Source of the DNA: Marine Group I thaumarchaeote
GTDB lineage: Archaea; Thermoproteota; Nitrososphaeria; Nitrososphaerales; Nitrosopumilaceae
Reading direction: 5' to 3'
NCBI GenBank assembly: GCA_013390785.1
Contig: JACASW010000002.1
Location: forward strand, 1 to 64,000
DNA: 64,000 bases
Shown: positions 53,199-57,294 of the stretch, in pieces
Layout of the letters: every line of letters begins with the position of its first letter
How positions within the stretch are numbered: the first letter of the stretch is position 1
The notes under the pieces: generated by a model
Told to the model about the DNA's origin: nothing
The model's input: the letters and a program-made list of their open reading frames with translations, nothing else
The model's database searches: none
Position numbers and translations under genes: made by a program

Positions 53199-54485
53199 TT
53201 AGTGAAACGATGTCAATTTTGAAACTTTTTGTATTACATCGCTAGGGTTTTTACCAAAGATTAGTATCATTGCTTCCTTTCCGATGTCACCTTTATGATA
53301 AATTACATCAGGCGATTTTGCATTGAGAGAGTTGGATATTCCCCAAGAAATGGAAGAGTTTTCCTTTTGCTTTGACTTTTTTGGTTCCTTGCTCCTGTCA
53401 TAGCTTAGAACAGTGAATTTTGATTTTTTTGCCTTTGCAATAATTTTTGGGTTATATTTTATGTTAAGACTAGAACGAATTTTTGGAAATTTTTTGTTTA
53501 CTTGAATTACAGCAGTTCCGACATGCTGTGAACCACCATATACAATTTCACCAGCTGTCACAACCTCCTTGCCTGATTTTACCAAACGACCGGATATTCC
53601 TAATACATCTTTTATGATTTTTGGGTTTTTTTTAGCAAAAACGAAGTTTGTTTGACACTCTGGAATTACTTTGTAAATGTTTTTGATTTGCTTAAAGTGA
53701 TTGATCGAATCTGATAATTCCCTCATCCCATTTGAAATATTTTTATGAGTAATACTCACGCCTTTTCCAATCTTTTTTGAATTCCTTATGGACTGGTAAA
53801 CATAATCCTTGGCTGTTTTTACTGCATTATACATTGTATTTCCCTTTGCAAGTGATACAGCAATTGACGCAGAGTAGTTACACCCACTACCATGGTTTTT
53901 AATGGGAATTTTTTTGCCAGAAATTACATATTCTTTACTCTCTTCTAAAACAAAATCAGAAATTTTACCATTTGATAAAGTTGTGCCAGTAATGATTACA
54001 CATTTGGCACCCATTGATTGAATTTTCTTTGCGGATTTTTTTGTGTTTGATATTCCTGATAACGCTTTGGCCTCAAACTTGTTTGGAGTTATAACATCAG
54101 CCAATGGAACTATCATCTTTTTGTAATCACGCAGTGCACTTTTTTTAAGAAGTATTGCACCTGTTGTTGATTTTATTATGGGATCGACAACTATTGGAAC
54201 TTTGATTTTTCTTAACTTTGAATGAATTACCTTTATTATTTGAGAATTGTAAACCATCCCAATTTTGATTGCATCAATATGAAAATCAGACAAAATTGAA
54301 TCTATCTGTGCAATTAAGCTTTTAGCAGAAACAGGCTCAACTAATGTAACTTTTCTTGTATTTTGGCTGGTAATTGCAGTTACAACTGTGAATCCGTATA
54401 TATCATGATTAGAAAATGTCTTGATGTCACTTTGTATTCCAGCACCCGAGGATGGGTCGGATCCTCCAATGGAAAGAATGTTCAT
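53199..54485 (-). CDS. Bifunctional HMP kinase / thiamine-phosphate synthase (ThiD-ThiN)
   Basis: A 428-residue fusion. Residues 1-~250 are ThiD, with IGGSDPSSGAGIQSDIKTFS, VVDPIIKSTTGAILL and KNHGSGCNYSASIAVSLAKG. Residues ~255-428 are ThiN, with VPECQTNFVFAKKNP and VTAGEIVYGGSQHVGTAVIQ near the ligand site. It phosphorylates HMP twice and condenses it with the thiazole phosphate, replacing ThiE. thiC follows within 1.5 kb on the other strand. Confidence 0.93.
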   Translation of the reverse strand: MNILSIGGSDPSSGAGIQSDIKTFSNHDIYGFTVVTAITSQNTRKVTLVEPVSAKSLIAQIDSILSDFHIDAIKIGMVYNSQIIKVIHSKLRKIKVPIVVDPIIKSTTGAILLKKSALRDYKKMIVPLADVITPNKFEAKALSGISNTKKSAKKIQSMGAKCVIITGTTLSNGKISDFVLEESKEYVISGKKIPIKNHGSGCNYSASIAVSLAKGNTMYNAVKTAKDYVYQSIRNSKKIGKGVSITHKNISNGMRELSDSINHFKQIKNIYKVIPECQTNFVFAKKNPKIIKDVLGISGRLVKSGKEVVTAGEIVYGGSQHVGTAVIQVNKKFPKIRSSLNIKYNPKIIAKAKKSKFTVLSYDRSKEPKKSKQKENSSISWGISNSLNAKSPDVIYHKGDIGKEAMILIFGKNPSDVIQKVSKLTSFH

Positions 54486-54583
54486 ATCTATATTGAATTA
54501 TGTACCATATTTTAAAAGTAAAATATAGAGGATACCCTTCTACATTAGGTAGATTTTGATAACAAGGCACATTTGGGAGTATC

Positions 54584-55261
54584 ATGCGAGTTCTATGCCT
54601 GAACTGTAATCGTGGTTCAAGCCGAATATCAGGTGAAATCCTAGAAAAAAATGCAGATATTATTTTGTTACAAGAATGGATATCACACAAGACAGATCAA
54701 AGTGCGATTGCTCAAGACTTGTTGAATAGTTTAGGTGAAATATCATCTACAAGATATTTAGTTACAGCATCAAAACAAAAACATATCATACTGCATAAAT
54801 CAGACCGAATTTTAATCACTCAGCATGATTCATCAATTCTCATCAATACTTATTTTCCAGCGGGAAAAACAATCGAAAGGAATGAACACTTCCAAAAATT
54901 GTCTTCGATTATTGATAATCTAAATTTGACTCCTATGTTGATTGCTGGTGATTTCAATTTAGCGCCCAGGAAGAAAGATGGTTGGTATGGAAACACCCAT
55001 TCTGATTTCACAAAAAAATCTGAAAGAGAAAATTTTCTCAAATTCTTGAGGAAATATGAGTTGTATGATTTGGGTATGGAGCTGGACTGGGTGCCAACCC
55101 TTGAGCGTGATATTAACGGAAAAAGTAGTAGATTTAGATGTGATCTTTTCCTACTCAAGGAAGATCTCCTAGAACTATCTAAAATGAGCTATGACCATAA
55201 ATTTAGAACTCAAAAAGGTCTGAGTGATCATTCAGCATTATTAGTGGAGTTGGAATTATGA
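54584..55261 (+). CDS. Endonuclease/exonuclease/phosphatase (EEP) family protein
   Basis: A 225-residue Mg-dependent phosphodiesterase fold like APE1/exonuclease III. Motifs are VLCLNCNRG at the N-terminus, the metal glutamate in IILLQEWIS, the catalytic MLIAGDFNLAPR near residue 125, a variable DLFLLK aspartate, and the final GLSDHSALLVELEL. The substrate may be DNA, RNA or a small phosphodiester. The stop overlaps the next gene (ATGA), so the two are coupled; that partner is a methyltransferase-like protein. Confidence 0.88.
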   Translation: MRVLCLNCNRGSSRISGEILEKNADIILLQEWISHKTDQSAIAQDLLNSLGEISSTRYLVTASKQKHIILHKSDRILITQHDSSILINTYFPAGKTIERNEHFQKLSSIIDNLNLTPMLIAGDFNLAPRKKDGWYGNTHSDFTKKSERENFLKFLRKYELYDLGMELDWVPTLERDINGKSSRFRCDLFLLKEDLLELSKMSYDHKFRTQKGLSDHSALLVELEL

Positions 55262-55854
55262 AAAATGAATCCCACAAAACAGCCATCCCTAGAAAAGAAT
55301 GGTCAAAACCGGGAAGATGGTTATATGAACATTTTTTCCAAAAAGACAACATTACTCTAGGTTCAATGTTGGATTTTGGTGCAGGAAAATCAATAGATAG
55401 CGAATGTTGGCAAAAAGAAACTGGTGCTATTGCACAAGCATATGATGAACATGAACAACCTAAATTCCCAGGGAGGGGTAATAGGCCAGACGGACAAAAA
55501 TTCGGACTCGTTACTGTTATTTTTGTGTTGAATGTAGTTGAAACCGATCAAGACAGAATTAAGATACTAAATGATGCGATGCAATATGTCAAGCCAGATG
55601 GTTATATTTTCATCGCCACCAGAAGTAAGAAGGATATTGCCAATGCAGTGAAGAGGGGAAACAACTGGAAAGAAATATCACCTGGGGCTTATGTGTCTGA
55701 TCCCAGAAAAAATACGATCCAATGTGGAGTCGATGATCAAGATATTCAAAGTTTAATTTCGAAGTCAGATTACAGTCATTTCACATACAAAGAACTCAAC
55801 GAACATCCGGGTTCAGAAATTGGTTGTGCTCTTTTTCAGAACACTAGAACATAA
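55258..55854 (+). CDS. SAM methyltransferase-like protein related to phosphorothioation-associated methyltransferases
   Basis: A 198-residue protein. It opens HKTAIPRKEWSKPGRWLYEH. Motif I is SMLDFGAGKSIDSECWQKE, the strand-2 acidic residue is in YDEHEQPKFP, and VTVIFVLNVVETDQDRIKIL has the pattern of the putative methyltransferases associated with DNA phosphorothioation in bacteria, recalled from memory. No dnd genes are visible. It is translationally coupled to the EEP-nuclease gene directly upstream. Activity and substrate are unproven. Confidence 0.72.
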   Translation: MKNESHKTAIPRKEWSKPGRWLYEHFFQKDNITLGSMLDFGAGKSIDSECWQKETGAIAQAYDEHEQPKFPGRGNRPDGQKFGLVTVIFVLNVVETDQDRIKILNDAMQYVKPDGYIFIATRSKKDIANAVKRGNNWKEISPGAYVSDPRKNTIQCGVDDQDIQSLISKSDYSHFTYKELNEHPGSEIGCALFQNTRT

Positions 55855-55936
55855 GGGGGTCCCTTGTAAACTACGTCATATACGTGGGTACCGACGGTGT
55901 ATTATTTTTAAAATTTGATCGCTGACTTGACGACTG

Positions 55937-55965: not shown

Positions 55966-57294
55966 ATGGCTACTCAAATGACCTCTGCAAGAAGAGGTAT
56001 TGCAACTGATGAGATGAAGCAGGTTGCAAAAGATGAAGATGTTACACTTGATTGGCTTTTACCAAAAATTGCAATAGGTTCAATTATCATTCCAAGTAAC
56101 AACGTAAGACCCCAGAAGATTCACAATGTGGGAATTGGAAAAGGCATGAAAACTAAGGTGAATGTAAACATTGGTACTTCAACATTAAACGTCAACGTTG
56201 AGGAGGAGATTGAAAAAGCCAAAGTAGCTGTAAAATATCATGCTGATACAATCATGGATCTTAGCGATGGCGGGGATGTTGGCAGCATTAGAAGGACGTT
56301 ATTGGATACAGCACCTATAACATTTGGAACTGTACCAATTTATGAAGCATATAACTTCGGTGTTGAAAAACACAAAAATCCTCTTGATATTACGGAGGAT
56401 GATTATCTAAAGGCATTCGAAAATAACATAAAAGATGGAGTTGATTATACAACAATTCATTCTGGAATTACCAAAGAAATTGCAAAAAGAATTTTCAAGG
56501 TAGAACGATATGCTGGTGTTGTAAGTAAGGGCGGAACAATAACTGCAGCATGGATGCTGAAATATGATAAGGAAAATCCTTACATCACTCATTATGACTA
56601 TATGATTGAATTAGCGCAAAAATATGATGTCACTTTTAGTCTAGGCGATGCACTTCGTCCAGGTTCTATATTGGATTCACATGACGAATTACAGGTACAG
56701 GAAATGATCAATATAGGGAGGCTAGCAAAGCGTGCAATTGAAAAAGATGTTCAAGTAATGATTGAGGGTCCTGGTCATGTTCCACTGAATGAAGTTACTG
56801 CAAATGTTACACTAGCAAAATCAATGATTGGAGACGTCCCATACTATGTTTTGGGACCTCTTGTTACAGATATTGCATCTGGGCATGATCATATAGCAAG
56901 CGCAATTGGTGCTGCAGTTTCAGCAAGTGCGGGGGTTGATCTTTTATGCTATCTAACACCATCTGAACACTTGGCGTTACCAACTCCAGATGAAGTAAAA
57001 GAAGGTCTGATAGCATACAGAATTGCTGCTCATGCAGGAGATTTGGTGAAGCTCCGAGAGAAATCCATTAAATGGGATATGGATATGACTGAAGCAAGAA
57101 GAACCCTTGACTGGGAAAAGCAACTTGCTTTATCAATAGATCCAGAAAAGGCCGCATTAATTCATGGACGTACAGGACAGCATCCAGGAAATAATGTACC
57201 GTGTACCATGTGTGGTGGTGCTTGTGTGTATATCATGCTACCAAAACAACGTAAGTACGAAAAAGAAGAAAAAAAATTACAGCAAACTAAATAG
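55966..57294 (+). CDS. thiC: Phosphomethylpyrimidine synthase ThiC
   Basis: A radical-SAM-type enzyme that rearranges AIR into HMP-phosphate for thiamine. It is 442 residues, the shorter archaeal form. Motifs are DTIMDLSDGGDVGSIRR, the SLGDALRPGSILDSHDELQ segment, MIEGPGHVPLNEV, and the C-terminal Fe-S cysteines in VPCTMCGGACVYIM (CX2CX3C). It supplies the substrate of ThiD-ThiN. Confidence 0.96.
   Translation: MATQMTSARRGIATDEMKQVAKDEDVTLDWLLPKIAIGSIIIPSNNVRPQKIHNVGIGKGMKTKVNVNIGTSTLNVNVEEEIEKAKVAVKYHADTIMDLSDGGDVGSIRRTLLDTAPITFGTVPIYEAYNFGVEKHKNPLDITEDDYLKAFENNIKDGVDYTTIHSGITKEIAKRIFKVERYAGVVSKGGTITAAWMLKYDKENPYITHYDYMIELAQKYDVTFSLGDALRPGSILDSHDELQVQEMINIGRLAKRAIEKDVQVMIEGPGHVPLNEVTANVTLAKSMIGDVPYYVLGPLVTDIASGHDHIASAIGAAVSASAGVDLLCYLTPSEHLALPTPDEVKEGLIAYRIAAHAGDLVKLREKSIKWDMDMTEARRTLDWEKQLALSIDPEKAALIHGRTGQHPGNNVPCTMCGGACVYIMLPKQRKYEKEEKKLQQTK

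Follow-up and report, generated by a model that had tools for sequence, protein, structure and literature searches.

An inserted gene pair encoding an EEP nuclease and a methyltransferase between thiDN and thiC in a Marine Group I thaumarchaeote

Results

Gene content of the locus

The DNA analyzed here, referred to as the window, is a stretch of 64,000 nucleotides from a Marine Group I thaumarchaeote whose genome assembly comprises 0.95 Mb and is 82% complete. Its gene content and its relatives suggest an ammonia-oxidizing archaeon similar to Nitrosopumilaceae. Two genes on the same strand lie between the thiamine genes thiDN and thiC, within a segment bounded by short direct repeats. The features of the locus are as follows.

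53199-54485, minus strand: thiDN, flanking gene
54510-54517, plus strand: direct repeat TTTTAAAA, left copy, 8 bp
54518-55905, 1388 bp: inserted segment with both genes; its limits are the 8-bp repeats, aligned locally to the empty sites of the same-genus loci L034-L037 and L055
54584-55261, plus strand: EEP nuclease gene, 225 aa, EEP superfamily, with a predicted ExoIII/APE1-type catalytic set (N7, E31, D123, N125, D187, H216)
55258-55261, plus strand: ATGA start/stop overlap of the two genes, read from the sequence
55258-55854, plus strand: methyltransferase gene, 198 aa, predicted class I SAM methyltransferase, single domain, related to the methyltransferase domain of TIGR04096
55906-55913, plus strand: direct repeat TTTTAAAA, right copy, 8 bp
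55966-57294, plus strand: thiC, flanking gene

The arrangement is that described in the first-pass annotation, including the four-base ATGA overlap, which is likely to couple translation of the two genes. Both open reading frames have conserved homologues, and therefore neither is a chance reading frame.

The pair occupies an inserted segment

The thiC loci of relatives were retrieved, and the distance between the start codons of thiDN and thiC was compared wherever both genes were readable. This distance is 52-84 bp in all 18 such loci of the same genus, versus 1480 bp in the window. The empty sites carry TTTTAAAA as a single copy; the closest of them, in G010 (thiC 99% identical), runs through it once. 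The 8-bp pair in the window resembles either a target-site duplication or a microhomology. The sequence returns to this locus at precisely these 8 bp, which makes a chimeric assembly unlikely. No transposase or integrase was seen among the reading frames of the window, nor were terminal inverted repeats seen at the junctions; the best pair of inverted arms (54470-54487 and 55323-55340) was rejected because it lies off the ends of the insert. GC and GC3 of the insert resemble those of its neighbors (GC3 0.30 versus 0.20-0.32 in host genes), and therefore composition alone is no mark of foreign origin. The proposal that the two genes form an inserted accessory module, which was to be judged by the adjacency of thiDN and thiC in relatives, is supported by these observations.

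The pair was found in one species-level genome of the 31 in the genus: the nuclease gene was not found in the 30 other genomes, and the methyltransferase was not found in the 60 relatives searched. Among 250 genomes of the family, the nuclease was found in that of the window and in none of the other 249, and relatives of the methyltransferase occur in three, namely the window's genome, G1016 and G978. A profile search for the pair over 398 Thermoproteota genomes detected it only in the window's genome; the remaining matches were weak, ExoIII-like and from other families. The distribution is patchy, as for an accessory function. The relative in G978 (L079:2769-3356; 195 aa, 63 bits) is a single-domain, TIGR04096-like methyltransferase on a 3.8-kb contig, adjoined by reading frames for small membrane proteins. 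In a further genome, G293 (L057), a sequence that resembles the TIGR04096 partner domain (E=3e-11) contains six in-frame stops and may be a decayed copy.

The nuclease is distinct from archaeal ExoIII

The nuclease just passes the cut-off of Pfam Exo_endo_phos_2 (PF14529; 28.9 versus 27.4 bits), falls slightly below that of Exo_endo_phos, and misses those of the NCBIfam ExoIII equivalogs TIGR00195 (37 versus 182.6 bits) and TIGR00633 (33.2 versus 99.1 bits). Together with the Pfam match, the catalytic N, E, D.N, D and DH residues place it in the EEP superfamily. D123, N125, D187 and H216 were assigned from an alignment with APE1, whereas N7 and E31 were picked out by eye in the N-terminal motifs; all six are conserved in the fusion proteins described below.

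The protein thus shares the fold and catalytic residues of ExoIII/APE1 (xth) and of the LINE-1 endonuclease, but differs from them in several respects. In a phylogenetic tree, the window's protein and the fusions separate from 18 archaeal ExoIII rows with support of 100/99. APE1 has an aromatic segment before its final catalytic Asp; the window's protein has PTLERDINGKSSRFRCDL there and DHSA where ExoIII/APE1 has DHxP, and its partner is a methyltransferase. A plain AP endonuclease is unlikely because of these two replacements. In a structural model of a fusion protein (pLDDT 77), the nuclease half matches the LINE-1 and TRAS1 endonucleases, ExoIII and APE1; that is, its best matches are DNA endonucleases.

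The methyltransferase is a relative of TIGR04096

The first-pass annotation had assigned the second protein to the phosphorothioation-associated methyltransferase family, subject to a profile match. The kinship is borne out and the membership is not. Residues 4-109 align with positions 3-97 of TIGR04096 at E=1.7e-5, yet they score 23.8 bits where the cut-off is 150, and the second domain of the family is absent from the 198-residue protein. Because the score is far under the cut-off and there is no second domain, we place the methyltransferase outside TIGR04096, as a relative of the family. It was the only protein in the window's genome that this profile matched.

The protein carries a series of motifs, HKTAIPR, LDFGAG, FVLNV and TRS..DI..A...W. 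The first three are common to TIGR04096, in the form of an N-terminal HxTA[IM]xR, a D[FYH]G.G motif I and a VLNV motif IV region, whereas the last is shared only with the fusions and with the G1016 methyltransferase. The fusions and the G1016 methyltransferase also share with the window's protein an extra segment, TRSKKDIANAVKRGNNW, that distinguishes it from TIGR04096. On inspection of the translation, the classical DNA-methyltransferase motifs (D/N/S)PP(Y/F) or PC are absent, and the motif IV region reads FVLNV. The structural model (pLDDT about 73, i.e., 72.6) matches class I methyltransferase folds with an uninformative nearest neighbor, and the matches are generic small-molecule and tRNA methyltransferases.

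A first tree separated the window's protein and the fusions from the TIGR04096 rows with support of 99/99. When G1016 and G978 were added and the Methylibium row left out, support was 89/82 for the window plus fusions and 87/84 for these plus G1016, below the strict threshold; exact placement is uncertain because the window branches are long. All nine TIGR04096-type loci scanned on plasmids, and three on Streptomyces chromosomes, encode the TIGR04096 partner domain; in L061 it has a gene of its own, upstream. The window's methyltransferase and the fusions are without it, and an EEP nuclease stands in the partner position. On the alphaproteobacterial plasmids L005, L059, L060 and L061, a gene with an FtsK/SpoIIIE domain lies directly upstream of the TIGR04096-type methyltransferase gene.

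The two domains are fused in Actinomycetota

In a protein search of 72,556 plasmids, the only two matches of the nuclease were also the two best matches of the methyltransferase, namely two Streptomyces proteins of about 450 aa each, with the nuclease N-terminal and the methyltransferase C-terminal. A search of genome contigs yielded five further fusions, four from Streptomyces and one from Sinosporangium. The first-pass expectation that the two proteins belong together is therefore upheld. Of the two outcomes that had been named as counting against the proposal, a failure of the pair to co-occur and a match of the methyltransferase to a housekeeping small-molecule family, neither was observed. 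The fusions (for example, WP_329317326.1 and WP_037791868.1, annotated 'methyltransferase domain-containing protein') have the same domains, order and catalytic motifs as the archaeal pair, at about 28-30% identity over the pair, but form one polypeptide with a linker of about 35 residues where the archaeon has two genes. They are rare: among 396 sampled genomes of the phylum, only one had a fusion, and that one was the query's own; since this search used two short peptide patterns only, pairs of greater divergence may have been missed.

Two of the fusions are plasmid-borne, with a phage portal gene near one and a MobF relaxase near the other. The fusion genes sit downstream of a gene for a LysR-type regulator, and most Streptomyces loci contain genes for a cysteine desulfurase, a protein of about 314 aa with no family match (X), a HIT protein, a dCTP-deaminase-like protein and a MazG-like protein, none of which is in the archaeal insert. 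The conserved set, comprising desulfurase, X, HIT, dCTP-deaminase-like, LysR, EEP-methyltransferase and MazG-like genes, spans L003:2607-8899 and is also seen in L004, L028, L031 and L032; we found no description of it in the literature searched. An ATP-grasp reading of X was rejected because neither Pfam nor PDB supported it. Against the PADLOC models, the desulfurase reaches 456 bits for DndA and 452 bits for SspA; in NCBIfam it stays under the thresholds set for DndA, NifS and IscS, and it is therefore placed only broadly in the IscS/NifS/DndA type.

A related operon and links to dnd

In the Nitrosopumilaceae genome G1016, an operon at L078:22-3101 (contig 149) encodes HIT, X, a 271-aa Cys-rich protein, the TIGR04096 partner domain and the methyltransferase, the contig starting inside the HIT gene. 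Its HIT and X proteins are homologous to those of the Streptomyces fusion loci (pairwise E 5e-8 and 1e-11); a MazG identity of the 271-aa protein was not confirmed. As in the window, a related single-domain methyltransferase gene directly follows a coupled partner gene, but the partner is the second domain of TIGR04096 in G1016 and the nuclease in the window. X was not found in the window's genome. A candidate X in another Nitrosopumilaceae genome, G1036 (E=5e-4), was rejected, as this reading frame lies in a run of genes resembling arginine/lysine biosynthesis and itself looks like an amino-acid kinase.

The reading frames read on either side of the insert include no dnd genes, in agreement with the first-pass annotation, and DndC was not found in the 82% complete genome. 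DndCD homologues have been reported in archaea including Thaumarchaeota (PMC6459918); phosphorothioation genes are thus known in the phylum, although our results show no connection between them and the insert. One member of the TIGR04096 superfamily lies beside dndB/C/D on a Pseudoalteromonas megaplasmid.

Searches for viral and known defence relatives

A search of viral contigs with the methyltransferase profile yielded two distant relatives of the methyltransferase (L084, L085), both without the nuclease, and the other viral contig searches gave no confirmed relative. Phage records gave one weak match to the methyltransferase only, inside a large phage protein, and none to the nuclease; no fusion was among the matches listed from a viral structure library. 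A viral origin of the pair was therefore rejected. The PADLOC defence models contain no family for either protein, neither Pfam nor NCBIfam gave a match to Hen1, and nothing relevant to the combination was found in the literature searched.

Discussion

Because the same two domains are fused in some Streptomyces, the nuclease and the methyltransferase very probably cooperate on one and the same nucleic acid; that this is DNA is moderately supported. We tentatively favor, at somewhat less than even confidence, a horizontally acquired two-protein enzyme that works as one unit on nucleic acid, in a small modification-linked defence or counter-defence module. The ExoIII/APE1/LINE-1-type nuclease and the SAM methyltransferase would be made together and act as a unit, most likely on DNA. 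The methyltransferase would mark a base, the backbone or an end, and the nuclease would cut depending on the presence of the mark; the module may then constitute a small defence system, or a counter-defence system borne by an element. This reading is based on the insertion into an otherwise conserved thiDN-thiC gap, the fusions and the grouping of the window's proteins with them in the trees, the conserved catalytic set, the DNA endonuclease matches of the nuclease half, the dndB/C/D genes beside a TIGR04096 member, the desulfurase near the Streptomyces fusions, and the patchy distribution, with two fusions on plasmids. Against it stand the lack of classical DNA-methyltransferase motifs, the lack of a PADLOC match and the generic fold matches of the methyltransferase, as well as the occurrence of the pair in only one archaeal genome found. 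The HIT, MazG-like and dCTP-deaminase-like neighbors of the fusions likewise weaken it, as they suggest nucleotide chemistry no less than DNA modification. The broader idea, that the pair is a new compact modification-dependent system with an EEP effector and a non-classical Dnd-superfamily marker, as the minimal form of a wider archaeal and actinobacterial system with HIT and X, is doubtful. To our knowledge, the EEP fold does not occur in restriction enzymes.

The main competing explanation, which we consider rather unlikely, is nucleotide chemistry: the methyltransferase would act on a nucleotide or a sulfur-bearing small molecule, and the nuclease, as a phosphodiesterase or phosphatase, would clear or release the product, within a larger nucleotide-centered system. 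In its favor, the Streptomyces fusions are surrounded by genes for HIT, MazG-like and dCTP-deaminase-like proteins and a cysteine desulfurase, HIT and X recur beside the related methyltransferase in G1016, and the fold matches include small-molecule enzymes. However, the partner genes are absent from the insert, X was not found in the host genome, and the nuclease half is best matched by DNA endonucleases.

Less likely still is a pair for end repair, in which the nuclease would process damaged sites or 3′ ends that are blocked, by trimming, and the methyltransferase would cap or mark the end, in the way that Hen1 marks or caps RNA ends. The ExoIII/APE1-type catalytic set and the overlapping reading frames are consistent with such a role, but PTLERDINGKSSRFRCDL replaces the aromatic stretch of APE1, none of the loci seen has a ligase or kinase partner, and Hen1 itself was not matched in Pfam or NCBIfam. 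That the pair is passenger DNA, recently inserted and with no role in the host, is improbable: its presence in a single species-level genome of the genus and the flanking 8-bp repeat would suit this, but both reading frames are intact, the catalytic residues are conserved and GC3 is host-like.

The finding points to a multi-gene system of HIT, X and methyltransferase, of which we found no description in the literature searched. We also found no function assigned to the methyltransferase domain in the Dnd-associated family; an EEP protein of DNA-endonuclease type fused to or overlapping such a domain, across archaea and actinomycetes, gives it a testable partner and a class of substrate.
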